Below, piece after piece: positions 1 to 35,403 of a stretch of 64,000 bases of DNA. The notes beneath the pieces are model-generated. The model saw only the letters and a list, made by a program, of their open reading frames with translations, did not search any database and had not been told where the DNA came from. Origin of the DNA: Polytrichum commune (taxonomy: Eukaryota > Streptophyta > Polytrichopsida > Polytrichales > Polytrichaceae); the NCBI GenBank assembly GCA_950295325.1, contig OX485803.1, forward strand, positions 28,646,001 to 28,710,000, given 5' to 3'. The stretch's first letter is position 1. The number at the start of each line of letters is the position of its first letter. The translations under genes were made by a program, and so were the position numbers.

Positions 1-1450
1 TAAGGGGGATGGAATGGTGCAGTGCTCGGATGGTGGCCATTGTAGAAGGAATGTAAATGCGAGTACACAAAAGGGAGTGGCCAAATGGGCAATGGACTTA
101 AGGATTAGCACAAAGTGGGGCGGTGTATATAGTGTTGTGATTAGAAGGCCATGGCAACATGGGATCTGTGAATGACGGCGGGGACTTGGATTAGTAGGGG
201 AATAATAAGCCGATTCATTATAGCAATGTGAATAAGAATTGAAAATGCACTGCAGCATTTACTTAAGTTAGTTATCATCATATGCCAATCCAAACCAGAT
301 ATATCAAAACCAAACAATGAGGTTGGATGCCGACTCGCGAACTTATTAATACACCAGACCACGTGAACCATTTAGTGGATGTAAGGGACACCCTAAAGGA
401 AAGTGTTTCTTTATTAGTGGGCAAGGGTAAAGCATTCACCTTTAAGCCAGAATAGGTTAGTTTAGTTGGAAGAGGATCGTCAATTTATGGCTATACAGAT
501 TATTTATTTCATTTAGTTTAGTTTGAAATATGTATTGTCATGTGTACTATCATTCATTATTTTTATAAAGCATGATGCTCCTTAAATTTAGATCTTACCT
601 GGATGATTTCAATACATGTTATTAAACATCGGTGTTCATTCTATAAGTGTTCCTTTTTATGATTCCATATATGTTTATAGCAACTAGACTGTAATCACCA
701 TACATCGAGATTATGTGAAGGAGGTTATGGGATGGAATATAAGTGTAGATGTAACCCAGGCGAGACACATACATTGATAGGGAGATGTTCACAAAGGAGG
801 GTAGTGTAGAATTTGTGAAGTCGGGTCAGTTACATGACAGGGTCTTCGCCGCTAGAGTTAGTGAAACCAAAGGCGAAGAGGAGGAGGAAGGCACTTTTCT
901 CAAACAGGAAGCAAATAAAGGCATCTAGGATGAGACAGCCAAAACAACCATATGATAACTTAAACATCACAGTGAAGGCATTGGAATTCTCCCTAGACCG
1001 CACACGGTCAAGGTCTCGTACACGGAGAAGCCAGACTCAGAGTGGTGAAGACATTGCTAGGAAGGGAGTTGGAGTGGGTACGACCAGACAAGTGGAGTTC
1101 CCAAAATCACATGATCTATCGAGAATTTGCGAGACCCAGGTATGAACCTCAAGTCGATGAAAACATATATGCACTAGAAATTAGGGGTAGTCATCGTGAG
1201 CTAGCGAAGGCAGCAAGTGCGGGCCTGTCGAAGCACTGACCATCCAAAGGGTGGTCACAATGACACCGTCAGAAGGGGAAGGGAACAAGACTGCCGCAGC
1301 ATTAACCTACCATCGTTCTTCGCATTACAACAAATCTCAGAACTAGGGTTTTCCTCCGCATACGAGGATTTCACTCTGCGGTCAGGGTTGCAGCCACGAG
1401 TTGGAGAGGGGGAGAGACTCGAGGGAAGGGCAGTGGTAGCCTAGTGGAGA
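1..1450. other. No gene recognised; low-confidence ORFs only
   Basis: I see no recognisable gene here. Short open frames lie around 834-1240 on the + strand. One is rich in Lys and Arg (an RRRK run and an RSRSRTRR stretch), but it has no family signature and no convincing splice context. If the repeat array that follows is an intron of the ParB-methyltransferase gene, a 5' exon could lie in this stretch, but nothing in the sequence proves it. Confidence 0.4.
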
Positions 1451-1598
1451 GGTCTGAGGTGAGGTCTAAAAGATTCATTTTGTGGTAATCTGATATGGGG
1501 GTCATCCTGTGAGAGTTTTCAAGTGCGGTATAAGAGGTAATTTTTGAGCCTATTTTGGGGTCCTCCTTACAGAGGTCCGAAGTGAGTGCCCTGGGGCT

Positions 1599-4335
1599 CT
1601 GTCGGATCCGACAGACCGTGGAGAGCCCACTAAAGAACCTCGCAAATGTTTATTATGTGGTATAAATTTAATTTGAGGGTGCCTTTGAGAGCGGTCTGAA
1701 GTGAGGTCTGAGAGGTTTTTTTTTTGTTTTTAAGTAGAGTGGTATAATGTGGTTGAATAAGATTTGAATGTGATATGTGGTTAGGGTGCTAGTTTGAGAG
1801 CTCCAAAGGGGGGCTTAGAGGTTGGCTATAGTTGAAATCCATTTGACTTTGCTTTCGGACAGGGCTGAAGTGAGGGCTAGTATGGTTGGATTTTATGAAT
1901 TTTCTGTTTAGGGTGCAAGTGGTAGAGCTCCAAAGGGAGGGCCCTTGGCCTCTGTCGGATCCGACAGCCCAAGGGTAGCCACCTTGGGGACCTCTCAAGT
2001 TTTTTTTTTTTGCTTCAATTTGGGCTGAGGTGAGGGCTGATGTGAGGGTTGGGATGGGTTTTTTTTTAAAATTTCTAGCTAATGTGCTTGTGGGAGAGGG
2101 CTTAAGGGGCCTTAGAGGTTGTCTTTTTGTTGAAATAGATTTGATTTTGATTATGGGCTCGGGCTGATGTGAGGGCTTGTATGGTTGTATTTTGTGAGAT
2201 TTCTAGTTAGGGTTCAAATGAAAGAGCTGTGAAGGGGGGCTTGAGAGGTTAGTTCATGTTGAAGAAGATTTGATTTTGATTATGGGTGAGGGCTGATGTG
2301 AGGGCTTGTATGGTTGTATTATGTGAAATTTTTGGTTAGGGTGCAAATGAGAGAGCTGTGAAGGGGGGTTGAGAGGTTAGTTCTGGTTGAAGAAGATTTG
2401 ATTTTGCTTATGGGTGAGGGCTGATGTGAGGGCTTGTATGGTTTTTTTTATGGAATTTCTGGTTAGTTGCTAATGAGAGAGCTTTGAAGGGGGGCTTGAG
2501 AGGTTAGATTTGGTTGAAATAGATTTGATTGTGCTTATGGGCTCGGGCTGATGTAAGGTCTTGTATGGTTGTATTCTGTGAGATTTCTAGTTAGGGTTCA
2601 AATGAGAGAGCTTTGAAGGGGGGCTTAGAGGCTTCGAATTTGTTGAAATTGATTTGATTTTGGTTACGGATGAGGGCTGAGGTGAGGGCTTGTATGGTTT
2701 AATTTTTGAATTTCAGGTTAAGGTGCTAGTGGGAGAGCTCCAAAGGGAGGGCCCTGGGCCTCTGTCGGATCCGACAGCCCCAGGGTAGCCACCTTGGGGA
2801 CCTCTCAAGATATTGTTTTTGCTTCAATTTGGGCTGAGGTGAGGGCTGACGTGAGGGCTGGGATGTTTTCTTTTTCAAATTTTCTAGCTAAGGTGCTTGT
2901 GGGGAAGGGGTTAGCGGGGGTTAGATGTATTCATTTTATTGAAATCGATTTGATTTTGCATATGGGCTCGGGCTGATGTGAGGGCTTGTATGGTTGTATA
3001 TTGTGAAATTTCTGGTTAGGGGGCTAATGAGAGAGGTTTGAAGGGGGGCTTAGAGGCTTGTCTTTTGTTGAAATTGATTTGATTTTGGATATGGATGAGG
3101 GCTGAGGTGAGGGCTTGTATGGTTTTAATTTTTGAATTTCTGGTTAGGGGGCTAATGAGAGAGGTTTGAAGGGGGGCTTAGAGGCTTGTTTTTAGTTGAA
3201 ATTGATTTGATTTTGGATATGGATGAGGGCTGAGGTGAAGGCTTGTATGGTTTTAATTTTTGAATTTCTGGTTAGGGGGCTAATGAGAGAGGTTTGAAGG
3301 GGGGCTTAGAGGCTTGTTTTTAGTTGAAATTGATTTGATTTTGGATATGGATGAGGGCTGAGGTGAAGGCTTGTATGGTTTTAATTTTTGAATTTCTGGT
3401 TAGGGGGCTAATGAGAGAAGTTTGAAGGGGGGTTTAGAGGCTTGTTTTTTGTTAAATTTGATTTGATTTTGCTTTGCAAAAGGGCTGATGCGTGGGCTCG
3501 TATGGTTTTAATTTTTGAATTTCTGGTTAAGGTGCTAGTGGGAGAGCTCCAAAGGGAGGGCCCTAGGCCTCTGTCGGATCCGACAGCCCATTGGTGGCCA
3601 CCTTGGGGACCTCTCAAGATATTTTTTTTTGCTTCAATTTGGTATGGATGAGGGCTGAGGTGAGGGCATGTATGGTTTTAATTTCTGAATTTTCTAGCTA
3701 AGGTGCTTGTGGGAGAGCTCCAAAGGGAGGGCCCTAGGCCTTTGTCGGATCCGACAGCCCATTGGAAGCCATCTTGGGGACCTCTCAATTTATTTATTTT
3801 GTTTCAATTTGGTCTCAGGTGAGGGCTGAGGTGAGGGCTTGTATGGTTTTAATTTCTGAATTTTCTAGCTAAGGTGCTTGTGGGAGAGCTCCAAAGGGAG
3901 GGCCCTAGGCCTCTGTCGGATCCGACAGCCCATTGGAAGCCATCTTGGGGACCCAGCAGCTTCAGACCATCATAACTTTCTTGTATGATGTCTGATTTGA
4001 ACAACCAACCACTCCATCTTCATCTACGCTTCACGTAGATGCCGATGGACTCCTCACTTGACCCATTCAGGTAAGTATTGACGACGTTATGCCTGTTTGA
4101 ACCTTGGCAGTCCCGGGAATCACTCCCAGGCACTGCTGGACCAGGGCTCTGTCGGATCCGACAGCCCATTGGAAGCCATCTTGGAGACCTCTCAAGATAT
4201 TTTTTTTTGCTTCAATTTGGTATGGATGAGGGCTGAGGTGAGGGCTTGTATGGTTTTAAATTCTGAATTTTCTAGCTAAGGTGCTTGTGGGAGAGCTCCA
4301 AAGGGAGGGCCCTAGGCCTTTGTCGGATCCGACAG
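1599..4335. repeat. Cluster of eight 16-bp BamHI-centred palindromes
   Basis: CTGTCGGATCCGACAG is perfectly self-complementary. It occurs at 1599, 1952, 2762, 3571, 3913 and 4149, and with a T at the first position at 3742 and 4320. A ninth copy is at 6815 in the intron array. Several copies have further complementary flanks, for example CCCTGGG on the left and CCAGGG on the right at 2762 and 6815. Each copy has a GATC at its centre. The palindrome lies in the long variant of the array unit. Confidence 0.85.
3955..4150 (+). repeat. Dispersed repeat segment, copy 1 (homologous to 10744-10935)
   Basis: This segment begins 'cagcagcttcagaccatc' and includes 'ttcatctacgcttcacgtag' and 'cagtcccgggaatcactccc'. 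It ends in 'accagggc' immediately before a palindrome. It interrupts the minisatellite and matches 10744-10935 with few differences. It could be part of a retrotransposon LTR or another mobile element; no coding region or terminal structure decides which. Confidence 0.8.
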
Positions 4336-5439
4336 CCCATTGGAAGCCATCTTGGGGACCTCTCAATTTATTTATTTTGTTTCAATTTGGTCTCAGGTGA
4401 GGGCTGAGGTGAGGGCTTGTATGGTTTTTTTTCCAAATTTTCTAGCTAATGTGCTTGTGGAAGAGGGCTTAGGGGGCTTAGAGGTTTGTTGTTTGTTGAA
4501 TTTGATTTGATTTTGCTTATGGTTGAGGGCTATTGTGAGGGCTTTTTGGGTTGTATTTTGTGAAATCTCGGGTTAGGGTGCTAATGAGAGAGGTTTGAAG
4601 AGGGCCTAAGAGGTTAGTTTTTAGTTGAAATTGATTTGATTTTGCTTTGAGAAAGGGCTTATGTGTGGGCTTGTTTTGTTTTATTTCGTGAATTTTCTGG
4701 TTAGGGGGCTAGTGGGAGAGGGGTTAGGGGGGCTTTGAGGTTTTCTTTTTGTTGAAATAGATTTGATTTAGCTTATGGGCTCGGGCAGATGTGAGGGCTT
4801 GGATGGTTTTTTTTCTGGAATTTCTGGTTAAGGTGCTAGTGGGAGAGCTTTGAAGGGGGGCTTAGAGGTTTTCTTTGGTTGAAATTGATTTGCCTTTGCT
4901 TATGGGTGAGGGCGGGTATGGTTTTTTTATAATTTTCTAGCTAGTGTGCTAGTGGGAGCGGGCTGAAGTGATGGCTTGAGAGGTTTGTTTTAGTTGCAAA
5001 TGATTTGACTTTGCTTTTGGGAGAGGTCAAATGGGTTCCCACTTCGGAACCTTTTAAAGTGGTCATTCTTATGCATATTTTGTTCATTTGGCTGGTCCTC
5101 ACCTTTGTAACTAATTGCTTCTCAGGAGATCATTGAGATGGTGGGGGATGGAGAGTCTTTGGATGTTGGGGTTCGCAATGGTGCTAAGTCATCCCTTAGT
5201 GTTGAGGAGCATAAGCAAGGGTCTCCGTTGTCACTTGCTGAAAATATTGGGCTTACACCAGGTAGTAGCGAACCCCATACACCCAGGATGCCACTCTGCG
5301 GCTCACCTGCAGAATCGGATGTCGGTGTTCGTGCAATGGAGTATCGAATTCGCCACAATTTAAAGAAAGATAGCTTCTCAGTTGTTGAGGGCATGAGGAT
5401 ACAACCGGTAGAAAAGTCCTCTATGAAAATCCCCCTCTG

Positions 5440-5862
5440 CAAGTTGATTCACATGCCATTGGTTCGCCCAATCCTCCGCAGCGACGTTACAAAGCTCATG
5501 GCGGCATTTCAATTTGGATACCGAGCTGGGTCTGCCACTTTGTACGTGTCTACTACAAATGAGTCTGGAGATAATCAATTCATTTCTGCGAAAGACAGGC
5601 GTGAATGGGAAGAGCTTTGGGTTGCAGAAAATGATAAGTTTGAGTCTTTTCTACGCGCGGATAAGGACTTGATGAGCCTCAGTGGATGTATGTTCTTCGT
5701 GTATGATGGTAACCATCGCTTGCTTGCTTGGAATGAGTGTATCGAATCATATTACAAGGACGATGCACTCTAGTATGAGAAGTATGGTTGCCCAGAATGT
5801 GTTGTCCTTGACACAACGGGTGGGCGTGGGGACGTCCTTAACGCAATGCACGATATCAACAA
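5440..5862 (+). other. ParB/sulfiredoxin-like domain region
   Basis: This part of exon 1 carries the ParB-like signature. It starts with 'IPLCKLIHMPLVRP', where ParB proteins have a conserved strand and NxR-type motif. A helix ending in 'FGYRAG' follows, and then the core 'DGNHRLLAWNE' at about 5704-5735. The last corresponds to the 'DGxHRxxA' motif of ParB and the phosphate-binding loop of sulfiredoxin. 'CPECVVLD', after the in-frame TAG at 5771, matches the strand that closes the fold. Confidence 0.6.
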
Positions 5863-6429
5863 GTAAGTATGTTAGTTTTTCAAATCGTTTTTTTCTTCAT
5901 TTTTTGATTGGCATCTAATGGCATTTGTCTCAACCGCAACAGGGCTAACCAGACCGCTCACGTTAAAACTAGCCTCGTACACACTCTACACCGCATTCAA
6001 AAATACGGTTCGTATGATCTTAGCTACTACCAGCCATTATTGACCAAGAAGCAATTCCAAGCATGCAAGAGCAGAGGCCCCAAGAGCCCTTGGTACCCGC
6101 TGACCCAGACCTTATGGTGTCCTTCATTTTCAATGTAAGTCAGTCCAAATTCCTCAACCTTCTACTTCGCATTCATTACTCTTAGTCATGATCTTACAAT
6201 TTCGAATATATGTTCAGCAAGAAATAGCCGATGCGGTAGATGAGGCAGCCCAAATATACAAGGAGGAAGTTCCTTCAGAGGAGCAATCTGGGAACCGGTT
6301 GGATGAGGTATTGGACGTTGTGATTAAGAAGACGACTAAGGAACTTGGTCACAAGTTTAACAAACAACAATCAATCGCAAACCCCGTCCTTGGAAAACAG
6401 TTCCTAGAGGAGGTACGTTTTGGTTGAAT

Positions 6430-7170
6430 TAAGTTTGAATGTCCTTATGGGAAAGGTCCTTATTGTTGAGGGCTATTGTGAGGGTTTGTATGGTTGTATT
6501 TTGTGGAATTTCAGGTTGGGGGGCTAATGAGAGAGCTTTGAAGGGGCGCTTAGAGGCTTCGAATTTGTTGCAATTGATTTGATTTTGGTTATGGATGAGG
6601 GTTGAGGTAAGGGCTTGTATGGTTTTAATTTTTGAATTTCTGGTTAGGGGGCTAATGAGAGAGGTTTGAAGGGGGGCTTAGAGGTTTGTTTTTTGTTAAA
6701 TTTGATTTGATTTTGCTTTGCGAAAGGGCTAATGCGTGGGCTCGTATGGTTTTAATTTTTGAATTTCTGGTTAAGGTGCTAGTGGGAGAGCTCCAAAGGG
6801 AGGGCCCTGGGCCTCTGTCGGATCCGACAGCCCCAGGGTAGCCACCTTGGGGACCTCTCATGTTATTTTTTTTTGCTTCAATTTGGTCTGAGGTGAGGGC
6901 TGCCGTGAGGGCTGGGATGGTTTTTTTTTTCGCATTTTCTAGCTAAGGTGCTTGTGGGGGAGGGCTTAGGGGGGCTTAGAGGTATTCATTTTGTTGAAAT
7001 CGATTTGATTTAGCTTATTGTTGAGGGCTATTGTGAGGGCTTGTATGGTTGTATTTTGAGAAATTTCTGGTTAGGGTGCTATTGAGAGAGGTTTGAAGGG
7101 GGCCTAAGAGGTTAGTTTTTAGTTGAAATAGATTTGATTTGAATGTGCTTATGGGAGAGGTCTCAAGTGA
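6430..7170. repeat. Minisatellite copy inside an intron of the ParB-methyltransferase gene
   Basis: This is the same repeat family as 1480-5045, including one full palindrome block at 6815-6830. It fills most of the intron bounded by the donor at 6413 and the acceptor at 7257-7258. Its position between two phase-0 exons shows that the gene model and the repeat are physically interleaved. Confidence 0.85.
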
Positions 7171-8539
7171 GGGCTTACTGCTAGCATTCTTTGCAGCACT
7201 TTCTGAGAATATATTCTCAAATTTACTTCGCCTTCTTTTTTGATTGCAAGTGTTTCAGATTACTAGGCATTATAGCACCCATCATTCTCAAAAGATTGAG
7301 ATGACATTGGAGAAATTGCAACTTATTGCCACAGCTGCAGTGGAGCCAGAGTATAAAGTCCGTTGGTTAAAGTGGTGGAACAGTGGAAGTTTCAATCGTG
7401 AAGCTATCCGGTTTCCCAAAAGTCCTGCAAACGAGGATACCTTGAAACCTTGCCTCAATAAAGTTGCGTTTTGGGCAGGGGTACGTCTATACTCCTTATC
7501 CATCCTTACCTTTCAGCTCTTCCTTTTGTGCCAATTCTTATCTTGGCCTTGAATTTATCCACAGCTAGAGGATGCCGCGGTCAAGGAGTTACCCGATATA
7601 CTTAATGCCTTGGGTGGGCTTGACGGAGACGTGGAAGTTGATTCATTGCCGGATTACTTGGAGAAGTGGCGAATCTGTCTATGGGATAAGGCGTTCATTG
7701 GTCACTTCTCAGGGTCAGATATATACGGAAAGGGGACGTGGTGGAAGGATGTCAAAGGCGCTAACAACATTGTCAAGCGCTTAATCTGTAGGTACGTTAG
7801 TTGGAAAATCTTGTGTTCACCTCATTTATTTCAAACCATTTGTTTTCTAAGTTGCTAATTGGCCTCGCTCCTTCGTTGTCAAGGTACATCAAGCACGAGC
7901 TCTTCAAGAAGAAGGCTTTGAAGAAGCTCCCTCCGTTTCTTGATGCATGGTCTGATTCCTCTTCACCTACCTTCATATTTTCCCCGGCTTAAAAGCGCAA
8001 CTTCTCCCTCCCCCATCTCCGCGAGTGTTGTTGGTACTTGGAATGTAAGAGGACGTGGCAACCGGATGAGGAGGCGGAGTTGAAGGTTCGGCTCTCCGGT
8101 GGAGAGCCTTCCCTGCCTCCTGCTCAAAGCGATGAGGTTGTTCTCCTTGACAATCAACTTCCGGAGGCGGATGAGGTTGTTGCGACTGTCGATGAGGCCA
8201 ACACACAGAAGTCCAAGAGGAGGAAGCGTGCAACTCAAGACGAATCATCACTCAAGAAGCGCGCGAGGAAGCTCAAGACTGTGGAGGATGATCCCCCTCC
8301 CCCTGCTTCACCTGAGGCGGCAGTTGCATCTACTCCATCTCTTAGTAAAGTTCCTACTCTATCCAGGCCACCTCCTCCGCCCATTCTTTCATCTGCTAGG
8401 CGTCCTCCCGTTGTTTTAGAATTCATCTTGAATGCCTCTAACCTTCATCAACGTCGTCATTTTCAGGAGGTTTCCAACTTCATTCTTTCTCTTCCACCCT
8501 CCTATCCGCGGAGAGCTCTAGGCGTTGCGAGGTCAGATG

Positions 8540-9330
8540 TGGGCATGGCTGATCTTGTCATTGCCGACATCCCGGAGAACCTGCCTGTACCCAATGTCTC
8601 CGATCCTTCCTATAGTGTACCTTCTTGGAATGCATTGGATACCGATTTTCTAGGTGAGCTCTTCGATTTTGCGGATGAGATCATGCATGACGATGGAGCT
8701 CTCCTCCTCTTTCATGCAGATGACAATGGTGACTTCAAGGAGAGCATTCAAGACCACTTCGCTGCTTTTGGGTTCACGATCTTTAAGGAATGGCTGGGAG
8801 TCAACCGTCTTCGCCTTCATTCAGCTAAACATGTGGACAAGACCACCAACCTCTTCCAGGTTGTCTTACTTGTTCGTGCCACCAAAACAATTGGATCCGA
8901 CCTTGATAAGCGGCCCCGGCACTCGTCATTCCGCCTTCGCGATGCCAATGAGCTCAAGGCTCTTGGCATTGAGCTCGATATGGATGATGCGATTATGAAT
9001 TATACCGTAACTCCTCTCATGGACGGCTCCAAAGCTTAGCGTGGTCCCCGGGAGAAAGATATTTCTTTCATGTCCTCCTTGATAATGGCCACTACGGACA
9101 TTGGACAGGTTGTGGTGGACGTTAATGCGGGCGTTGGTATGTCCTACTTCACTTGCCATCATATCCAAGTTTTCAATTTCTAAGTTTTTTTTTTTTTTTT
9201 CCTTTGCTAACATTTCCTCCGCAACAGGGACTTCTATCCATGCATGCAGGCAGCTTGGGCGCCATATCGTTGCTCTTGAGGAGGACGAGGACACCTTCAA
9301 CCGTGTCCTTAAGCCACTTAAGAGTGTTAA
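8540..9330 (+). other. DNA methyltransferase-like domain region
   Basis: The order 'DxP' (about 8548-8575), a helical and strand-rich segment ending 'FQVVLLVRA', 'RGPREK' (about 9040-9057), then 'DVNAGVGTS' split across the 9136/9228 splice junction, and 'GRHIVALEEDEDTF', follows the beta-class order: motif IV, then X, then I and II. The catalytic tetrapeptide is not a canonical DPPY; it reads D-I-P-E. Either the domain is divergent or its activity is lost. Confidence 0.6.
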
Positions 9331-10020
9331 GCCTGCGGTGAAGGCTCCATCCATTGTTGTTGCTTCCACGCAGGCTTCACAAGGCACGCAGAAGAGGCCG
9401 CCGGCCTTGAAGCGATCGAGGCCAAAGTCCTCGCAGTAAGTGAGTATGATGACCTTCTAAGTTGCTTCTTTTCCTTGTCCACTTAGCTTTTACATTTTCC
9501 ATCCTTTTTCTTACAATTTTCATGCTTGTTTTCAGACTTGGCCTTGGAGCGGATGTGTTTGGTACGCCTACCAAGGGATTCTCTTTGCCAATCTATGCCC
9601 ATGATATGGCGATGGTACTAGCGGCACAACCTTCTCCTAGCAAAGCTAGTACCCCGTCTCCACGTTATGACCCCCGTGCCTTAGACTTCTTCGATGTTCT
9701 TGCAGAGGTGGATAATGAATGCCATACCTTAGATTCCTCTTCAGATGAGGGCGGCCATGAGGGGAGTATCTTTGGAAGTAGGGAATCTAGTAGTGACAAC
9801 GTCATTGTTGATTGATTTTTGGTTTGATTGATTGGTATTTGGATTTATAAAGTGTGGTGTGGTTTTCAATATTCCAATTATCTTGTTGAATGCATCTTGT
9901 CGTTGTTCTCAAATAACACTACACTTTTGTGGTCGTCAACTAGTATACAATCTAAAGACAAGTAGCCAAACCAAATACACATAATATTTTGATTTCTCAA
10001 GCATATCCTACCCACAAAAA

Positions 10021-10345
10021 AGAGGCCTCGGATCCGAGGCCTCTTTCCAAACCTCCTCCTCATGCTAGAACATACAAGAAATGGCCAAATGCAAAGACAA
10101 GTAGCCAACTCAAATATACATAACATTTTGATTTTCAAGCATAACCTACCCACAACTAAGAGGCCTCGGTTCCGAGGCCTCTTCCTATAGGTCCTCCTCA
10201 TGCTAGAACATACAAGAAATGGCCAAATGCAAAGACAAGTAGCCAACTCAAATATACATAACATTTTGATTTTCAAGCATAACCTACCCACAACTAAGAG
10301 GCCTCGGATCTGAGGCCTCTTCCCATAGGTCCACCATCTTCTCAA
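10021..10345. repeat. Three tandem 138-bp repeats, each with a 24-bp palindrome
   Basis: Palindromes start at 10021, 10159 and 10297, exactly 138 bp apart. Each reads AGAGGCCTCGG, a two-base centre and then its complement. The first is perfect around GGATCC. The second has GGTTCC and the third GGATCT at the centre. Between them lies 'catgctagaacatacaagaa' and 'caaagacaagtagccaa'. The block starts about 200 bp after the stop codon of the ParB-methyltransferase gene and could be its 3' UTR or a separate repeat. Confidence 0.85.
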
Positions 10346-10743
10346 CCACACTGAATTTTCCCACGGCCATAGGGCCTCGTTGGTAATTTTTAGAAACTTT
10401 TGGTCCTAAAAATTAGGCACTCCATAAATAACGGCCTCATAATTCCAAAATTAAACTTGAAATATGTGCAAAATCCATGGTCATAGGGGTCCTAACTTTC
10501 GTTAAATGGAGTTTTAAATTTCGATTTTCTGCTCACGAGATCTGCTCACCGCTCACCGCTCACATCGTAGCATTCCTAGCCGTGCCGTTCGGCCTCGGGT
10601 GGGTGAGGCCACACCACCTCACCCATATAAGCCTCTAGGACTTCACGCGGGGCCCCTACCCCACCGTCAACCAACCTCTTGTCTCTCTACCAAGAGTTGG
10701 GGCCAAGTGGACATTTTCCTTTAGCTGCTGGGCCTAGAACCCC

Positions 10744-11250
10744 CCAGCAGCTTCAGACCATCATAACTTCCTTGTATGATGTCTGATCATAACAACCAAC
10801 CACTCCATCTTCATCTACGCTTCACGTAGATGCCGATGGACTCCTCACTTGCCCCATTCGGGCAAGTATTGAGGAAGTTATGCCTGTTTGAACCTTGGCA
10901 GTCCCGGGAATCACTCCCAGGCACTGCTGTACCAGGGCGCTGTCCCGGGACAGCGCCCCACTCAAATGGCCATAACTCCTAGCTCACACCTCCGATTGAG
11001 GTGTTCTTGAGCTTTCTAGAATCACCACGCCATGAGCTACGCATAACTCATGGCCTTACCCTTGTGCCTCCTAGTCTTCGTGGGTGGGAGGCGTTCCCAA
11101 CGCCCGGGGCCCTCACCCACACTAGGATCACTTGGGCCCTCTCACCAACGGCGCCACAAGTCCCGGGTGTCACTCCGGGGTCCCCCTTGTGCCCATGGTG
11201 TTTCGGGCACTCCTCATGGAGAGGTGCGCGACAACGAAGGCCAATGACAA
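10744..11250 (+). repeat. Dispersed repeat segment, copy 2, with a 24-bp palindrome
   Basis: 10744-10935 matches 3955-4150. At the point where copy 1 has the GGATCC-centred palindrome, this copy has a different but perfect palindrome at 10935-10958 (arms GGGCGCTGTCCC and its complement). GC-rich sequence continues to about 11250 ('cccgggtgtcactccggggt'). This resembles the edge of a larger retro-element, but I see no gag or pol frame. Confidence 0.75.
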
Positions 11251-11375
11251 CTGAAAGGGTAATGAGAATTTATATAAAATAAAGAGTTTTTTAAAACAAT
11301 TCCACCTAATGGGTCATTTTTATTGGTACGAATGATACAAACTCAAAAAGAACCTCATGACCCCAAGTCGGGCTT

Positions 11376-11505
11376 GACATAACATTATTCAGATCTATAA
11401 CAATGTTATGTGGGACTGACAGTATTCCACATAGTATTCCAGGATATTCCCCACATTCAGTCCCACATAACACTATTATGAATTTGAATAATGTTATGGA
11501 GAGAG
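11376..11505. repeat. Foldback inverted repeat of about 130 bp
   Basis: The left arm at about 11378-11421 contains 'cataacattattcag' and 'aatgttatgtgggactga'. The right arm at about 11459-11503 contains 'cagtcccacataacac' and 'gaataatgttatg'. The arms pair over roughly 40 bp around a loop of about 40 bp. A related arm, 'gacataacattattcag', recurs near 49719. It is probably a short foldback MITE; I found no clear target duplication. Confidence 0.65.
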
Positions 11506-13146: not shown

Positions 13147-16100
13147 TCATCCATCAATAGATTCCACATTCATTGGAGCCAATTCAATTTCATCTCGTTC
13201 CGTGGTTAAAGTTAATTCATGTAAGTTGAAATGTCCCGAGAAGTTTGCTAACAAGCTAGTTTCCATGAAATCACTTGTTTCCAAGTCTTCAATTGTTCCA
13301 TCAAATTGATCACTTTGCAACATGGCCACTACTTGAGCCATGGTTGGTCTTCTCTCGTCCAATTGTTGCAAACATAACAAAGCAACATTGATGACTCGTT
13401 GCACTTCCATCTTCTTGTCCGCATCTAAAGTCAATTTGTGATCCACAATTTCCATGAGTTTGTCCTCTTGGTGTAATTTCCACACCTGCAAAAAATCACT
13501 CCTTAGGATTGAATGAAATTAGATATGAAAATTAGCTACTTGCTCCATCAAATGTAACCACTGCAACATGGTGAACTTCAAGTTCCACGATGTATATTTT
13601 TAATACATCTTACCCTTTAGTAATTTTACACCAAATTCTTTTGTGTGGATCACATGCAACATATATAACCAAACAAATGGAATAGTGGTAAATTATTTTC
13701 CCTTGGACAAAATACAAAACAAGATCCTTGGTTGCACACTCAAAAAAATGAACTCCATCCTATTATATGTCTACAAATAAACAATATCCCAAGCCCATCA
13801 CAAGGTAATGTTCCCAAAGGGCAGAGGCATAGAGGCAAGGTCTCTTGAGTGTTTTTGTGCCATGAACACTAGCTTCCAAAGTGATGTGTCATGGTCCTTG
13901 AACCCTAGATCTTCACAAAACCAACCCCATAAAGACCACTAGACGCACAACCTCAAGTTACCTTCATAGATCCCTTCAAGGTTTCAATTACTACAATAAT
14001 TGTCAAATAAAACCTTCATGGCCCTTGTTGTTTGAATTAAATTTGCTATTTTGATTTGGGTCATAAAGTACTCCATTGAAAGGTGGCAAAACCATTCAAG
14101 CGAGAAGGTTTTTCATTCTAAAGCCAACAATTACATCAATTTATCATTGGCCACCAAAACTTGTGATTATTGCTAACCAACTATATATTGTTGATTGTTG
14201 TGTTGAAAGCAAACCATTATTTATAGATTCAATATTTCAAGGCAATTGCATATTGAATGTATTTTTATTTAAGTGTAATGTGGGCTGGCCTTTGAAGTTT
14301 AAATTTAATATACTAAACATTTCCTACACGTTCAGTAATCTAGTTGGGGAACAACCACATGTGTTGGTAACATCTTACCCATTTGGTGAGATATGCTTGG
14401 TCCGTCATTACACTGCTATCAATGTTTTTTCTTCCACTAACAACCTCCAATAAAACAACCCCAAAACTAAAAACATCGGCCTTCTCGCTTAGTTGTCCCA
14501 AGGTGGCATATTCCGGGGCTAAATAACCTCTGCAAAACTCATGAAATGATCTTAAATGACTTTTTGTGCACATTGTAATTCTTGAATCAATATCTAGGCC
14601 ACCTTTACCTTGAACATGCTTGTATTTTATCAACAAAATTTAGTTGCAGGAATTGCTTGTATGAAATAGAACTTAACTAATTTAGGCAATACATGAATCG
14701 TGTATAGGAGATTTTTTAGATAGCGATTTACATAGTGTAAATCTTTTATAATATACCGTAGTATTCATGAAAATGTCACATTCACATGTGACTTTTTTAT
14801 TTAAAAGCCAACTTAATTTATAGTCTTGTAGAGTGCGTTTCATCTCTGGGGGGGGGAGTTTTTTTTAAATAAATTAAAAATTCAAGAAATTATTTTGAAA
14901 TTGATTTTGTATGGGCACCTATGGTACAAGTTCATAGAGTAAAGAAGAAGTTGTCTAATATCATGATTGTTATGTTTTGATTGCTATCAAGAGTGTTTGA
15001 AGCAACAATGAAGAACATACATTTCATGATATGAAAAAAGTTCGTCCCTCACCATCACTTGCACATGCGACTAGCATTTTGTAAATACATTCAGATTAGT
15101 TGGTAAAAGGTTGTCTCCAAAGACCAATTCAAGCCAACCATCCTTGTATTCGAGAAAACAACATTTGTGACATTTTCATGAATGCCATGTTGTATATTAT
15201 AAACTCGCATGAAAAGGTGAACAATCACGTCTTTCACGAAGGTCCCACCAAGGTTTGAATATTTTTGAAAGCCATGTCTCCATAATTGCATAGTCACTAC
15301 TATGTGAGCAATCTTTAGTAACTACTTTGAGGGTATGCTTTGATTAATTTCATGTTGAGAGAAGTTCATTGAATAAGTTAGATTATGCACGTTCTAGAAC
15401 TTGTATAGCACATGTTATTATATCATTGAATGAAATACATTTCCTATGTATTCATTGCAAGTGTATGTGACTCACCTAGTTCCCGCAACTTTCATAGTCA
15501 TGATGTGCGTCACATTATCCGGAAACAACAACACTAAGCCAAAGTCTCCAATCTTTGGTTGGAAATTATTATCCAGTAGGATGTTACTTGCTTTGATGTC
15601 CCGATGAATTAGCTTTGGCTCGGCAAGGGCATGTAAATAGTGGAGGCCGTGTGCAATCCCGAGACATATATTGAATCGTATAGGCCAATTCATAGATTCA
15701 ACACATTTTCCTTCTGTGTATAACACGATGCCATCCCACATCACATTATCAATGTCAAATCAATATACTTCATAATCAAGTCCAAAGAAAAATGAGCACA
15801 AAATCTAGATGAATTTGATGAATCCGGTATATGACGAGGACACATTACCCAGTAAAGCTTGTTGTAGATCATAATTTTCAACATACTCGTACACTAAAAA
15901 CCGTTGGGTTTCGTGGAGGCAACATCCTTTGAGTTTCACAAGGTTTCGATGTCTCATGCCAGTGATCAATACAACTTCGTTACAAAACTCAGCAAGTCCT
16001 TGCTCATTTTTGATAAATAATTGCTTCACTGCTATAGTACTACCATTTGGTAGTATTCCCTGCACATGAATCATGGCTTTGTTAAATAGACATATTGGTT

Positions 16101-18501
16101 GTAGAGTATTACAAAAATCAACTTTACATGTACTTGATTCAACTTGTTAGGATTGGCACGATTGTTAAAATGTTGTGAAATAATTAACATACTAATTCTT
16201 TCATTAACTTTGATTTATTTATATAACAAGAGCTTCAAACGTTAATATATTGTTCCTCTTATTGCGATCTAATTGTCTAAATGTGGACATGCATTCACTC
16301 TATAAAACAATGTAGAAAATCAAGTCAAAGGGGTATCTTCATAAATTGTTATCATGAAAACAATCTACAAAGTTAAAAGGCACATGAATCATTGTTGTGC
16401 TTTTATTGGCCACATGCATAATGATCTATAGTTTTATTGAAGAAAGTTGTTATAACTACCTTATAAACTGCTCCAAAACCTCCTTCACCAAGCTTCATAC
16501 TTGTGTGGAAACCTTGGGTTGCAACTCGCAATTCGTCATACTTAAAAAATGTAGGTTTCCTATCAAACTCTTGGAACCCTGAAATTGAAAACACATAAAT
16601 GAAAATCTAATAAACTCACATCCAATATAAATTGTTCTATGTGATTGAAATTGAAGAAGCCCACTAAAAATATGTGAGGGCTAGACTAAGTTTCAATATA
16701 TATGATTGTGAACTTTGCATCAGAATTGAAAAGAAAAAAACTTGTCAAAGTGCTTACTTTCTTGAAGATCATGTTCGAGTTGGAACACAAGATCTCTCTT
16801 GACCTTGCGAGAGACAAGGATTGTAATGATAATCACTAGAACCACCACTGATACACTTATAGATGTTGCAATTGCAATTGTCTTCTTGCCTACATGCACA
16901 AAGCAAAAGCATCTAGGCCATCAACAACAAGAGCCTCTTAGATGTAGATTCAATCCAATGGCTCGTGGAAGGCCAAAATTAGCTGCATAAAGTAGCTAGT
17001 GGGACTACCATAGTTTCCTAGCAACTTCGGCGAAAATAGATAAGAAATAGAAGGGTGCCTACATTGTAAAGAAATTCTTGACATTGCTTGCCTTTTCTTT
17101 TTCTTTTTATAAAAGATCATATTAATGTCCAAATCACATAAGCTCAACTCACATGTGTTTTAATTCAATAAATTAGCTTTTAGGTGTAAATAGGTTTAAA
17201 CACACATAGCATAGGTTTTTTTGTGAGTCTTTTGTCTCACCGTTCTAACACTTTAAACCCACAATCTTTCACAAATGCAACATATCTCTCACACATAACA
17301 AACCATGTCACATAAGAGTTCAAGATAACTAATGGGAGCCTCAGAGGTGAAGATAAGGGTTTCGGGTAAATTGGCCACCACTTGGTATCACTTTTGGGTG
17401 CTATTGAGTGAACCGTTTCGTGTGCATTCGTATGCAGAGTAGGATTTTTTAATGCTCACAGTAGAGATTCTCTACTACACAATTAGGAGGTTTGACTTAT
17501 TTACCTCTTTGAGAAGATATAACTAATTACTTACAGGGAATAGAATTACGAAACAACTTGCATTCCTCATCATTTCCTCTCATCCATCTCCGAAAAGATT
17601 TGGACAAATTTCAAGCCACTCTGTCTGGCCGGATCAGCTTATTCTTCACCATTTTACTCTTTTCTAGTTTAGCATCGTGCATCAAGCTTGAGCAGCAGTC
17701 AATAGACAAACCTGAGACTTCTCTGTCAGTGGCAACTCCGAGTATGCAGTATGCAGTTCCGGAATCCCACGGTCCCGCCGAATTGACGACGCCTGCCGAA
17801 TATAGTACAACGTAGTCGAAGCATTCCGACGACGTACTAACATTCAACTTGGTGAGCAGTCTGATAGCATTTTGTATTTTCTCGACACACAAGGTGCACT
17901 GACCGTCATTCCCGAGATCGCCCTCACAGGAGCTCAGATCAATGCCTAGATTCGTCCCCGCGACTCTCTGAAAGTCAGCCTTGGTCTGAATTCCTTGGCA
18001 CATCAAGGGGCCCCTAGTGAACAAGGAGGGGTTGTTCACGAAACATTCCTTTGCGACGTTGCGTGTCACACCCGTAGTTTTGAGCTGAGTTTGGAAGCTG
18101 GACAGGCAGGCGTTCACCATAGCCTGGTCCTGGAGCTCAAATAGCCCTTCGACTCTCAGATACTCCGCCAACGCGAGGCCCATCCCCGAAAGAGCCGCAA
18201 TGCAACATGAGCTTGAGGCGGTGGCATTACTCACTGCGGGCCTCAATCGGCACACATCTTTGATCCAAGTGTACTTGCTAAGAACTGAAAAATCAAGAGG
18301 ACACAACCCATCTGTCTGCACAAAAGTAGTAGTTCGTCCTCCATCTCTCCTAGAGGTTATGGCCGGTCCTCTCGTCGCACTCGCAGGCGTAGCAAGCACT
18401 AGACTGCAAATTAGCACCATAATCAGTATGAACCCCCTAACAGACTCCATTGTCTCCATCCGGAACAAATGCCACTTGCGTAAATCACGGTGTTGCTTCA
18501 T
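13147..18501 (-). CDS. SPARK-domain receptor-like kinase, seven exons, apparently intact
   Basis: Exons on the minus strand are 18501-17712, 16889-16758, 16578-16460, 16059-15849, 15713-15476, 14529-14379 and 13485-13147. They total 1980 nt, exactly 660 codons, with every phase matching. Exon 1 has a signal peptide (the Met at 18459 or 18450 is the likelier start) and a Cys-rich SPARK-type ectodomain ('CPLDFSVL', '[10 protein letters not shown]', '[10 protein letters not shown]', 'CTLCVEKIQ'). Exon 2 is the transmembrane helix followed by a basic stop-transfer. Exons 3-7 are a Ser/Thr kinase: '[12 protein letters not shown]', 'IAVKQL', '[12 protein letters not shown]', 'DFG', 'APEYA' and '[12 protein letters not shown]'. 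All catalytic residues are present. SPARK kinases include the ARK1 group that supports arbuscular mycorrhiza, but the ligand and role of this one are unknown. A transposon ends 132 bp upstream of the most upstream Met, so the promoter is largely transposon sequence. Confidence 0.88.
16758..16889 (-). other. Transmembrane exon of the SPARK kinase
   Basis: This 132-nt exon encodes '[20 protein letters not shown]' and continues through a hydrophobic run to '[18 protein letters not shown]', the juxtamembrane segment. The acceptor is AG at 16891-16890 and the donor GTAAGC at 16757-16752. It joins in phase to the SPARK exon at a CAG/GTTTGT donor. Confidence 0.85.
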
Positions 18502-19003
18502 CTTCGAGCTGTTCTATGAATACCACCTCCAGTCTCGCCTACAGGCCTTGACAGATGGAGCCAGGGCCAGCTTTGCGGCGACAAATAGGGCACGTGTGAA
18601 CACTGCAGGGCCTGTGCGCCATGCACCTGGTATAAGGGCCGGTTCACACTATGGCCGTCCAAGTCGAGAGGCCGTGGGATTGATGCCCCGATCACACCAA
18701 CTTTCCGTCAACATCCGGATGTGAAATAGTTGGGGATGTGATGACGGCCGGATGCCAAGTTGTTCACACCAACATCCCGGTTTGGTCAACATTTTGGCGG
18801 CCGGTGGCCACCATCATGACCGGTCAAACGAGTTGGCATAGACTTTTAAGGACAATTGTTCTATCTCCTATAAGGAGCCCACCTTGACTTTCAACACCAT
18901 GACTTTTGTGTCAAGTTCTTCATCATACTTAAGACTCTCTTGAAGTGTTCAATTCATCATTTGGGTTGGACACAAACTTGTTAGAAACGTAGTGCATGCT
19001 ACA

Positions 19004-20241
19004 ATGGATCCATTAGAGTTTCTTATGATGTCCCCTTTGTTCCAAAATGATGGAGATAGTTGTTCCGTTATTTTTTTGTTATTCACTATGATTAGTGTGA
19101 GTGAGGTTATTCAAAGAACAATTCACCGTGAGTGGTGGAAATTTCCACGTTCGAGTCATATGTGGAGGGTTATACACAAAGATGTTTGGAATTTTGACTC
19201 AGAAGTTCGTGATGCTTTATGGATTCAAGAATATAGAATGACCTACACATCTTTTTTGAAGCTAGTTGAATTTTTTAGGCCTTACGTAGAACATGAAACT
19301 ACCAACTATAGAGTAGCTATTGAGGTTGATCGTGCTATAGCTATGGTATTGAATAAGTTAGCATTTGGATTTTCCAATAGACATGTTGCCAACAATTATT
19401 GTGTTGGACAAAGTACGGTTTGGAAATATACTTTTATTGTTACAAAGGTTTTGGCTAATCCACAAAAGTTATATTCCCATTTCATTAGTATTCCTCAAGG
19501 TGTAAGATTGATATCGATTATAGCACACTTTAAAAATTTAACTGGGTTAGAAAATATGTGTGGGGCCATTGATGGCACCCACATTAGATTGGCTGAGAAA
19601 CCTCCTATGAGCTTAATTCCTGCTGATTATTGGAACCGGCATGATCATCATTCAGTATTATTGCAAGATGTTTGTGATGCTAATCTTTTGTTTTGGGATG
19701 TGTGTGTAAGGGCACCTGGAGGAACTCACGATGCAACTCACTTTCGGGATTCATTTTTGTGCAAGGATTTTTTGGAGAAAACTATTTTGCAAGAACCAAA
19801 CATTCAACTAGGCTCTCAATTAGTTCGACCTTACATTGCGGGTGATTCTGCCTATCTTTTGATGATCCACATTATGAAAGCATATTCTGATCGATGCAAT
19901 GGTGATATGTATAAGGATGCTTTTGATAGGGCATTTAGATCGGGAGGGTTAAAATCGAAAATGCTTTTGCCCATCTCAAGAATAGTTGGAGAGTTCTCAA
20001 GTGTCTCAATTTTACTGTCCCATATGCAGGCCAAATTATTATTGCGTGTTGTGTTTTACACAATTTCTGCAGGATGAATAATGAACAACTTGCAAGTGGA
20101 CAAGTAGTGGATCCCCACCCGAACCTTAATGATTTGAGGGTTCCAAGGAGACCAACTACTGAGAGAGCATCTAGACTTGCCGCAATTGCCATTCGACATG
20201 CTATCTATGACAAATGGTTACATTCCATTTTAAATGACTAG
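19004..20241 (+). pseudogene. PIF/Harbinger DDE transposase with one frameshift
   Basis: The protein starts at the ATG at 19004. The first catalytic Asp is in 'GAIDGTHIRLAEKPP' (about 19565) and the second in 'IAGDSAYLL' (about 19840). The reading frame then fails near 19935-19950, in a G-rich run. In the next frame the expected third motif continues as 'RVKIENAFAHLKNSWR', which supplies the catalytic Glu. After it comes 'CCVLHNFCRMNNE', typical of this family, and a stop at 20239-20241. One base change in length therefore separates this copy from a full transposase of about 412 residues. The frameshift could also be a sequencing error in the G run. Confidence 0.9.
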
Positions 20242-21514: not shown

Positions 21515-22378
21515 TCAAACATCAAAAATATCATCGTCTTGTTGTCGTTTGCGCTTGGAAGAACTACCAAATTCCATTTTCATTTGGAACAACTGCATTT
21601 TTAGGTTCTCGGCTCGTTCTTTGGCTTTTGCATCTAACTCATGTAGTCGTAGTTGAAATGCTTGATTGTCCGAATGCATTTGGGCAGCCAATGCTAAGTG
21701 CTTTTCGGCTATTGACATTTTGGTTTCTTCTAATGACTTATAGACATCGACAAATTTATTCAAGGAATCTGTAATATGTTTGCTAGGAGTGTCATTACGT
21801 TTAGAATTCAATTTACCCTCCACATTGGGTAAATTGCAAGCTCGTTGCCGTAAAGATTCTGCAGGTATCTCTGAAGGTGTGGTATCTATACCCTCTGCTT
21901 CAGGATTTGTTGGAGTTATGTGCACTGGACTTACAGGAATATCTTTGTTCAAATCAGATGTCTCATATTGATCCAAATCAATATTTGTGCTCGTGTAAGG
22001 CACTTCACCTCGATCTTGCGATCCTGGTAGACCGGAACATTTCGGTGTAGTAGCCCACATTTGGTCACATTCTTCGTACCAAACCCAAGTTGAAGGTGTC
22101 CCCCCTGAAGTTTTGACAACCTCTGCACGTTCTTTTTTGTATTTTTTTTTCAAATTATCAATTTTAGATTTGAGTGTTTGTTTTGTCAATTGACACCCTG
22201 CTTCGGCATTAAATGAAGCGGTTAGTTTATCCCAGTGATGATCTTTTGCATTGCCTCGTCTCAAATGAAAGTATTGATCCCGGAAAAGAGTCAACAAAAT
22301 CATTATCCATGCATCCAGCCAATGAGTGGCAGGCCCCTTAGAACTTGACTCGGTTTCATTTACATTTGGTGGCGCCAT
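21515..22378 (-). CDS. Harbinger ORF2: Myb/SANT-trihelix-like DNA-binding protein
   Basis: The frame runs from the ATG at 22378, which follows a plausible splice acceptor (ACAG/GATGG), to a stop at 21515. The N-terminal part 'THWLDAWIMILLTLFRDQYF' with 'HWDKLTASFNAEAGCQLTKQ', then 'WYEECDQMW', fits the Myb/SANT-like (trihelix) domain of plant PIF/Harbinger second ORFs. The C-terminal third is a charged coiled coil ('RLHELDAKAKERAENLKMQL') and ends in the basic 'SSKRKRQQDDD', a possible nuclear signal. In this transposon class the second protein binds element ends and brings the transposase into the nucleus. The frame is open throughout, so this half may still be functional while the transposase is not. 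An upstream exon may exist. Confidence 0.82.
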   Translation of the reverse strand: MAPPNVNETESSSKGPATHWLDAWIMILLTLFRDQYFHLRRGNAKDHHWDKLTASFNAEAGCQLTKQTLKSKIDNLKKKYKKERAEVVKTSGGTPSTWVWYEECDQMWATTPKCSGLPGSQDRGEVPYTSTNIDLDQYETSDLNKDIPVSPVHITPTNPEAEGIDTTPSEIPAESLRQRACNLPNVEGKLNSKRNDTPSKHITDSLNKFVDVYKSLEETKMSIAEKHLALAAQMHSDNQAFQLRLHELDAKAKERAENLKMQLFQMKMEFGSSSKRKRQQDDDIFDV

Positions 22379-22408
22379 CCTGTAAAATATTTTCATAATA
22401 AGTCTCAT

Positions 22409-23895
22409 TTTCTGTACATTGCTATGATCAGGGAGAACCGACAGTTAGTTGCAAATGAATTTGATGAGTTAGAGAAATAATTGGTTGAGTTTGAAAAATA
22501 AACAGCTGGAATTTAAGACTGAATTACTGTGAAACAGAAATAGTGACCTCTTACTTGCAAGAACCTCTTACAAGCAAACTCGGACTAAATACGGCACACT
22601 GTGAAACTCCTAAAGCCCATAACATGTTTTCCGCTGGAAACTCTCAGTACAAGGTCAAGAATGTGGAATCTGGAGTACTATGAGATCTGCAAGAGAGGTT
22701 GGTTGGTGAATCCCCAAACCTATGATGCCTACAAGCAAGAACCTCTTACAAGCAAACTCGGACTTTAACTGATTACACCTACAAATCTCAACTGATCATA
22801 CATAAAAATCTCCCTGGTGACTGATTCATGGGCCTCTTATTTCCAGCTCTCTTTACATACTAATTTTTGCTATGTCAAACTATTCAAAGTAACTGTAGAT
22901 GTTATAATATGTTGTTTGCATCTAAGTTTCATGGCTTTACTTGTGCAGATCCCAGAATTAGGAGTGGCTAAATATGCTTCACAGGTACTAGATCCATACA
23001 GGGAAAGCGAGGGTTGCCAACATGTAACCGGACCGACTTGCAAACACTAAGATCTCAATTGGTTATACCTAAAAATCTCCATGATCACTGATTTAAACTG
23101 TTGTTAAACTGATTCTTACAAGCAAGTTGTGTTACGTATTCACAACTCTTTACAAACAAAGTAACAAATTCCAACAAACAAGGTTACAATCTTTGACAAG
23201 CAAAATCACCAATAAAAACAAACAAGAGTTGCACAAACATGAAGCTCAAGAATTGAAGAAACTAACCCGAAATTGTGTTCGATGTAGAGAGATCCACAAC
23301 ACAATGAGGAAGTGTCTTATGAGGAACTTCTCAATGTGTGGCAACCGGAATAGAGTGACCGGCAGAGGCTAATCTTGGAGGGGTTACCGTTTTGGGTGGT
23401 GGGACCCACACGGCCGACACATTTTTGTGGTGGGGCCCACACGTCCGACGCACATCCAAACGTGGATGTCAGATTATAGATGGTGGCCTTTTCCGGCGCC
23501 GTCATACATCATGGACGGCGATGGCCCACCATGGAAATCACTATTAGAGACATATTCCTCTACTGAAAATGAACTTTAAGTTTGGTGTGATCGGGGCATG
23601 AGTGGCCAAACTTTGTTGAGAGTCCAAAGAAATGTCCTGAAAATAGTCAATAAAATATAGTAAGTGGAGCCTTTGGCCGGGCATAGTGTGAAGCCTCCAA
23701 AGGTTAAGCCCAAAGTCCTAACCTTTGGCCATGAACTCCCACGGCCTCTCGACTTGGATGGCCATAGTGTGAAGCCTCCAAAGGCCGAGCCCAAAGTCCA
23801 AACCCAAAGGAGCATCCCACTTTATTCCTTGCTCAAAATAACCCCTCCAATCTAATGGTCAAGATCTTGTCAATGATTGATATTTTAATGAAAAA
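22409..23895. other. Non-coding right arm of Harbinger element 1
   Basis: No gene. It holds 'cagggagaaccgacagttag' near 22428 and 'aacatgtaaccggaccgact' near 23018, both related to segments at 33745-33975 and 38668-38890. A GC-rich subterminal part with repeated 'gaagcctccaaagg' begins near 23660. Confidence 0.5.
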
Positions 23896-34108: not shown

Positions 34109-34224
34109 TAGGCGCAGGGCAGGCGGCTGTTTTGCTAGGTTAACTATATGGCCTGCTGTTGCTGAGGTCCTCTTCCTTTTTCGAGCTCCTCTTGCAGCTC
34201 CTCGGCATCGCTGAGGTCGTAACC

Positions 34225-35403
34225 ATGTCTCACAGGAAGTTCGAGCATCCCCGTCACGGTTCGCTCGGATTCTTGCCCCGCAAGAGGGCGAAACGTCATA
34301 GAGGAAAGGTGAAAACTTTCCCCGCTGATGACCCTAAGAAGGCATGCAGCCTGACCGCCTTCCTTGGCTACAAGGCTGGTATGACTCACATCGTGAGAGA
34401 GGTGGAGAAGCCCGGATCCAAGTTGCACAAGAAGGAGACATGCGAGGCCGTGACCATCGTTGAGACTCCTCCCATGGTTGTCGTCGGATTGGTGGCGTAC
34501 GTGAAGACTCCTCGTGGTTTGAGGTCTTTGAACACCGTCTGGGCTCAGCACTTGAGCGACGAGCTTAAGAGGAGGTTCTACAAGAACTGGTACAAGTCGA
34601 AGAAGAAAGCCTTCTCCAAGTACACGAAGAGGTATGAGACCGAGGAGGGCAAGAAGGACTTGGAGTCCGACTTGGAGAGGATGAAGAAGTACGCTAGCGT
34701 TATCCGTGTGTTGGCTCACACACAGGTGCGCAAGTTGAAGGGTATCAAGCAAAAGAAGGCTCATCTGGTTGAGATTCAGGTCAACGGTGGTACCATCGCT
34801 GACAAGGTGGACTTCGGTTACAAGCTGTTCGAGAAGAGCGTGCCCGTGGATACCGTCTTCAACAAGGATGAGATGATTGACATCATTGGAGTCACCAGGG
34901 GTCACGGTTATGAGGGCGTGGTTACACGTTGGGGTGTGACTCGTCTTCCCAGGAAGACTCACAGGGGTCTGCGTAAGGTTGCTTGTATTGGAGCATGGCA
35001 TCCTGCCCGTGTTTCTTTCACCGTTGCCAGGGCTGGACAGAACGGTTACCATCACCGTACCGAGATGAACAAGAAGGTGTACAAGATCGGTAAGGTCGCG
35101 GACAAGGCTTCGTTCGCTGCCTCCACCGAATTCGATGTGACTGAGAAGGAGATCACCCCAATGGGAGGATTTGCCCATTATGGTATTATTAGGGATGACT
35201 ACCTTGTGTTGAAGGGATGTGTCATGGGACCCAAGAAGAGAGTGATCACTCTTCGTCAATCCCTGTACAAGCAGACTTCCAGAAGCGCTTTGGAGGACAT
35301 CAAGCTCAAGTTCATCGATACCTCTTCGAAGTTCGGACATGGTCGCTTCCAGACAACATTGGAGAAGGCGAAGGTTTACGGAAGAGTGAAGCCCACCGCT
35401 TAA
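34225..35403 (+). CDS. RPL3: 60S ribosomal protein L3 (uL3)
   Basis: The protein is complete at 392 residues, close to the usual plant length of about 389. It starts with the conserved '[20 protein letters not shown]'. Further hallmarks are '[20 protein letters not shown]', '[19 protein letters not shown]', '[20 protein letters not shown]' and '[16 protein letters not shown]'. uL3 is a core protein of the large subunit near the peptidyl transferase centre. The Met at 34225 was chosen because it matches the universal start; the frame is open 66 bp further upstream. The whole coding sequence is one exon with high GC at third positions, unlike most plant RPL3 genes, which have introns. That suggests either loss of introns in this lineage or a retrocopy, but there are no disablements and a telo-box lies upstream, so it is probably expressed. 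Confidence 0.97.

Follow-up and report, generated by a model that had tools for sequence, protein, structure and literature searches.

The 64,000 nt stretch of Polytrichum commune DNA considered here (assembly GCA_950295325.1, contig OX485803.1, forward-strand positions 28,646,001 to 28,710,000; the whole stretch is called the window below) begins inside a DNA transposon of 14,818 bp, and the gene of interest, in eight exons between positions 5138 and 9815, is an accessory gene of that transposon. Its product would join a ParB-like N-terminus to a methylase-like C-terminus with a replaced catalytic motif, and there are arrays of palindromes on both sides of it. The reading favored here, with moderate confidence, is that this is a decayed copy of an accessory gene whose product, a pseudo-methylase from a phage-type ParB-methylase fusion, binds these palindromes and either alters the chromatin of the element or builds a nucleoprotein complex on it.

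The complete element occupies C1:28641761–28656578, with its left end 4,240 bp outside the window. Its ends were set by alignment of the 40-kb neighborhoods of five copies, together with target duplications. The portion within the window (1–10578, forward strand) is colinear at 96–98% with another copy, D (C3). It ends in a terminal inverted repeat of about 25 nt (10554–10578, reverse strand), an imperfect match to the left end, followed by the right copy of a 10-bp target-site duplication, GCCGTGCCGT (10579–10588); the left copy stands just before C1:28641761. Copies A, B, and C (17.0, 17.8, and 16.4 kb) have 9-bp duplications (CTTACGAAA, TGGTACAGT, and AGGTCCAAG), and copies D and E (14.7 and 14.2 kb) have 10-bp duplications (AAGTTATGAT and CTGTAGGGGC), so that with the window copy there are three of each length. 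Mutator-like elements have target duplications of 9–11 bp and inverted ends, and these transposons of 14–18 kb with terminal inverted repeats are probably Mutator-like. Two large transposase-like frames lie on the strand opposite the accessory gene. The first begins within the window, at 97–2: these first codons of a divergent transposase (2–97, reverse strand) match the copy D transposase at 100% by tblastn, with the rest to the left of the window (L043). The transposase-like gene has a SWIM-like finger, with a Pfam E-value of only 0.12, and Pfam gave no match to a MULE transposase domain in the transposase-like frames. A CACTA/EnSpm assignment was rejected: a scan of the window found no matching ends of CACTA type, and the ends that were found are of another type.

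The gene is present in many copies. A search of the genome (407.8 Mb) with a 348-residue piece of exon 6 gave at least 117 matches, with 116 of 1431 candidates scored; at least 49 cover 300 or more of the 348 residues, at 87–100% identity, and 40 of these 49 are stop-free in that stretch. The ParB-like exon gave at least 150 matches (150 of 1100 candidates scored). Among the exon 6 matches listed, nine share a score of 711.1 bits, and copies A, B, and C are 98–99.6% alike in DNA outside the array; because of these equal scores and this near-identity, the sequences point to recent movement of the elements. The earlier note had supposed that a plant lineage kept the gene for itself, which is not supported for a multi-copy transposon gene within a complete element. 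That a host gene was captured once by a transposon, or that the protein is domesticated and the window copy a host pseudogene, would fit the intron-rich structure, which is like that of host genes; but all three families examined carry the gene in multiple copies, the window copy sits inside a complete element with a target duplication, and this reading, highly improbable, was rejected on copy number and element ends.

The single spliced frame proposed in the earlier note is confirmed as eight forward-strand exons (5138–9815) separated by seven GT-AG introns. Exon 1 (5138–5862), the ParB-like region, has one in-frame stop (TAG, 5771–5773), and exon 6 (7884–9136), the methylase-like region, has two (TAA, 7990–7992; TAG, 9037–9039); dinucleotide shuffles average 8.8 and 12.1 stops respectively, and in neither case was any of 400 shuffles as low (best frame). 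The remaining exons are exon 2 (5943–6134), exon 3 (6219–6412), exon 4 (7259–7480), exon 5 (7565–7791), exon 7 (9228–9434), which holds the remainder of the motif I region (TSIHACRQLGRHIVALEED), and exon 8 (9536–9815), which encodes an acidic C-terminal tail and the stop codon. Taken alone these six small exons are weaker, since between 7 and 110 of the 400 shuffles match their stop counts; their support comes mainly from position and from conservation in relatives. The acidic tail truly belongs to the gene, as had been suggested, since exon 8 has a conserved counterpart in a diverged family, with 48% identity across 54 residues. The 3,300 exon bases would encode a protein of about 1,100 residues. 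The window copy is nevertheless broken, by the three in-frame stops, by a frame change in exon 2 (near 6090–6134; copy D has a single open frame here), and at the exon 7/8 junction, for which no in-frame model was obtained.

The C-terminus resembles an N6/N4 methylase of the beta order, and its methylase ancestry is supported by Pfam, PHROG, and phage-fusion profiles. The match to PF01555 (N6_N4 methylase) has an E-value of 1e-5 and, at 26 bits, is just below the Pfam cut-off of 26.7; PHROG methylases match down to 1.4e-7, the PDB entries for DpnA and CcrM at 1.3e-4 to 3e-4, and the NCBIfam CcrM model at 1e-6, far below that family's own cut-off. Against a profile built from 11 phage fusions of ParB and methylase, the methylase part scored 36.2 bits by hmmsearch (best of 1000 shuffles, 4.6) and 65.3 by hhalign, which none of 100 shuffles reached. 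Searches with the methylase part gave no match to viral contigs with a single sequence, 24 phage records with a best E-value of 0.02, and one unrelated plasmid stretch. Searching viral contigs with the methylase alignment confirmed at least one contig among the best 600 stretches. The proposed motif I region (DVNAGVG/TS...GRHIVALEED) does read in frame across the exon 6/7 intron, in unbroken alignment to methylases, and the splice is supported because the junction falls within the phage-methylase alignment.

At the position of catalytic motif IV (DPPY) the window copy has DIPE (8566–8577, forward strand). This replacement, already pointed out from the sequence, proves to be a feature of the family and not decay of this copy. 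Among 20 sampled methylase stretches, DIPE is found in 18 and DPPY in none, the other two having DLP followed by a stop (L071) and ALPK (L085); 16 of the 20 belong to a single family, F3, and the independent events are far fewer than these counts. Copy A and two members of another family, F2 (L044 and L046), have DLPE; copy D, L045, and the window copy have DIPE. Motif I is eroded as well, reading DVNAGVG, DVAAATG, and DCTAATD in the three families. The methylase-like part is thus probably a conserved pseudo-methylase that has lost catalytic activity.

Families F2 (L044, L046) and F3 (L047 and L045) show the same exon order, with identities that are mostly 38–56% over long stretches. Both large exons are under purifying selection. 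For copies A and D, the ratio of nonsynonymous to synonymous divergence (dN/dS) is 0.14 in the ParB-like exon and in the methylase exon alike; other pairs between sub-families give 0.07–0.34, with higher values for two close pairs (L055/L056, 0.43; L086/L087, 0.72), and eight further pairs were saturated and gave no dS. For the window copy the ratio is 0.19 against A and 0.43–0.47 against D, the latter from few changes (ParB-like exon, dN 0.032, dS 0.069). There are more gene families than these three: L053, L055, L061, and L064–L066 have diverged ParB-like exons, at 39–49% identity to L055.

The N-terminus is less clear. The sequence DGNHRLLAW, to which the earlier note had drawn attention, is present in exon 1 (5705–5731, forward strand) and has the form of a GxxR-type box II, a motif described for the ParB fold in PMC12704722. 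The box G-[ND]-H-R-x-x-A-W is found in 23 of 24 ParB-like exon sequences, the exception being SNHRRQAW in L063. The suggested check against Pfam profiles gave the PF01555 match for the methylase part, but none to a ParB family for the N-terminus; nor did the ParB-like part match one in NCBIfam or the PDB, PDB searches with two plant alignments returned no ParB chain, and viral contigs, phages, and plasmids gave no match. Against a phage ParB profile, a single plant sequence was within the range of shuffles in hmmsearch, and its hhalign score was reached by one of 100 shuffles; four plant sequences from three families scored 27.0 by hhalign, and none of 200 column shuffles scored as high. DUF1015, which we take to be itself a ParB relative, matched over the DGNHR box in two of 12 members (E 0.17–0.19). 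PMC12704722 names “DU1015” as one of the domains that occur in fusion with a ParB fold. A single-sequence fold prediction for exon 1 had a mean predicted local distance difference test score of 35 and was not used. A ParB-like domain is therefore a plausible but weak claim, with the box II motif for it and no significant ParB profile match, and the N-terminus is better described as ParB-like than as a proven ParB domain, with a ParB fold as a plausible structure.

The phage fusions, including those of Streptococcus phage Javan575 and Porphyromonas phage026a, have the same domain order as the plant protein, with which they have in common a stretch of the methylase part (GALLLFHADDNG/YVFHADTEG). 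They are shorter, at 404–503 residues for the 11 aligned, the plant protein adding a long middle region and the tail. The Javan575 protein itself scores below the cut-off for ParB_N, at 4.7e-5. The plant protein probably descends from such phage-type fusions, with the ParB-like region and methylase fold kept and the catalytic motif lost.

The candidate binding sites are palindromes, found upstream of, within, and downstream of the gene. Upstream is a tandem array (1571–5026, forward strand) of 128/171-bp units with eight TCGGATCCGA palindrome cores. The first CTGTCGGATCCGACAG-type palindrome is at 1598–1615, and others start at 1952, 2762, 3571, 3743, 3913, 4149, 4321, and 6815, those at 3743 and 4321 being 14 nt long. 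The last (6815–6830) is in intron 3 (6413–7258), inside a copy of the upstream array. Downstream, 138-bp tandem repeats (9954–10335) carry palindromes centered on TCGGATCCGA, among them a perfect one of 28 nt (10019–10046); in two other units the core has diverged. All ten TCGGATCCGA cores in the window are within 1602–10037. Positions 1–11300 contain 12 GC-containing palindromes of at least 14 nt (mean of 100 shuffles 0.78, maximum 3), copies within one array not being independent; the remaining 52.7 kb of the window contains five.

In five 40-kb stretches, the palindrome cores inside and outside the element number 20/0, 25/0, 17/0, 10/0, and 8/2. The 16-nt sequence CTGTCGGATCCGACAG has 374 exact copies in the genome and its reversed control none. 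The listing gives 50 of these sites, every one of them on C1, and 46 are within 10 kb of a listed ParB-like exon. When the majority repeat units of copies A and D are compared, the palindrome is identical at 16 of 16 positions, against 53 of 154 outside it without gaps; with gaps, 87 of 180 columns match in all.

These same two copies differ greatly in their transposition machinery. Between A and D the proportion of synonymous differences (pS) is 0.16–0.24 for the accessory exons, with 93% amino acid identity in the ParB-like exon, but 0.77–0.78 (saturated) for the transposase, at about 51% amino acid identity; the terminal sequences also differ. Because the accessory exons are close while transposases and ends are far diverged, the accessory gene has, on this comparison of sequences, been exchanged between anciently diverged transposon backbones. 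The palindromes could instead be subterminal repeats bound by the transposase, as is common in DNA transposons, with the accessory protein doing something unrelated. This seems unlikely: A and D have both the accessory gene and the exact palindrome in common, yet their transposases and ends differ, and because the palindrome is common to elements with the same accessory gene and different transposases, the accessory protein is the favored reader.

Palindrome binding is thus the most likely role suggested by the sequences, with the accessory protein binding sites on both sides of its own gene and in its intron. Once bound, it would change the element's chromatin or its silencing, or alternatively assemble an element-wide nucleoprotein complex. 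The first of these would be anti-silencing like that of VANC of the Arabidopsis VANDAL transposons, a comparable transposon-encoded accessory protein with tandem-repeat targets; according to PMC5735166, VANC targets are often tandem repeats and vary between related transposable elements. Anti-silencing of this type means that the protein binds its own element's repeats and reduces DNA methylation there. An extension of this proposal, possible but doubtful, is a transposon system resembling ParB/parS, in which a pseudo-methylase joined to a ParB-like clamp would read family-specific palindromes around and within its gene, spread over the element against silencing, and move between lineages together with its palindrome.

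The closest described counterpart is the Ectocarpus transposon Sola1-1, which according to PMC12477816 carries an accessory gene for a ParB and N4C/N6A methylase protein of 1104 amino acids opposite its transposase; green and red algal ParB-methylase transposon proteins are cited there as well. As so described, the Ectocarpus type is like the moss gene in being transposon-borne and opposite the transposase, with a ParB-like N-terminus, an N6/N4-methylase-like C-terminus, and about 1,100 amino acids. The moss element differs in its 9–10 bp duplications, being neither Sola nor EnSpm, and its protein in the replaced catalytic motif, the palindromic arrays, and exchange between backbones. The Ectocarpus authors suggest that the protein binds and modifies its own sequence. 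For the moss protein to do so it would have to be an active if unusual methylase marking its own element, with D[IL]PE as a working variant of motif IV. Its domain order and length (about 1,100 residues) resemble those of the Ectocarpus protein, the palindrome center GGATCC includes GATC, purifying selection acts on the exon, and motif IV varies in two of the 11 phage fusions as well; however, DPPY is absent from all 20 sampled stretches and motif I is eroded too, which makes this quite improbable. Modification of the element's own DNA looks unlikely here, and binding remains.

Algal ParB-methylase transposon genes have thus already been published; neither a plant member with a replaced motif, palindromes, and module exchange nor any other land-plant report of such a protein was noticed among the papers listed in searches of open-licence literature. 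The moss gene would bring a plant genome into this recently noticed algal class, adding a candidate cis site, a candidate catalytic loss that selection has maintained, and evidence that the gene has passed between transposons. How a phage-type ParB-methylase fusion came to serve selfish ends in eukaryotic chromatin would be directly testable here.

Several observations weigh against the favored reading. The ParB homology of the N-terminus is weakly indicated, with nothing significant in Pfam, NCBIfam, or the PDB, and more plant sequences did not raise the hhalign score, which with 22 stop-free ones was lower, at 23.5 over just 13 columns, and had no shuffle control. Departures from DPPY in the phage fusions (DLSY and DAPY, with DPPY in nine of 11) show that motif IV varies among phages; its Y is kept in all 11, and E is found in none. 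For four of the 50 listed palindrome sites (C1:14.070–14.078 Mb), the closest ParB-like exon listed is 36–44 kb away. The F2 and F3 stretches, which are partial elements, lack the 16-mer, with one GTCGGATCCGAC in L044; F2 instead repeats CATCCGGATG (five in L044, two in L046) and F3 repeats AAATCTAGATTT (six, two of them between exons), and these short palindromes may be chance sequences fixed by tandem growth. The palindromes generally could be transposase sites or by-products of the arrays. The Mutator label, finally, was assigned by the length of the duplications, the type of ends, and a C2H/SWIM motif pattern, with no Pfam match.

As to the remote palindrome sites themselves (C1:14070221–14078033), they perhaps mark a gene-less element or an interrupted copy. 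In the window, the element is flanked by a dispersed repeat (10579–11233) containing a 24-nt palindrome, GGGCGCTGTCCCGGGACAGCGCCC; the repeat has matches in several places, including next to or within copies A and D, and a 202-bp piece of it is found in the upstream array (3952–4153). The resulting direct repeat (3952/10743) was considered as a pair of long terminal repeats and rejected, since it belongs to the dispersed repeat. Next to this is a short inverted-repeat element (11378–11498) with 42-nt arms that are 88% complementary. Further along are pieces of a SPARK-domain receptor-like kinase (15808–18513, reverse strand; SPARK 1.3e-27 at 17614–18513, kinase 1.4e-9 at 15808–16146), which with other genes points to a land plant, and a PIF/Harbinger-like pair at 18944–20238 (forward) and 21518–22444 (reverse), with a DDE_Tnp_4 transposase (1.3e-8) and a Myb/SANT-like protein (1.6e-10). 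An intronless, full-length ribosomal protein L3 frame (34144–35400; 8.5e-190) is possibly a retrocopy or an intronless gene.

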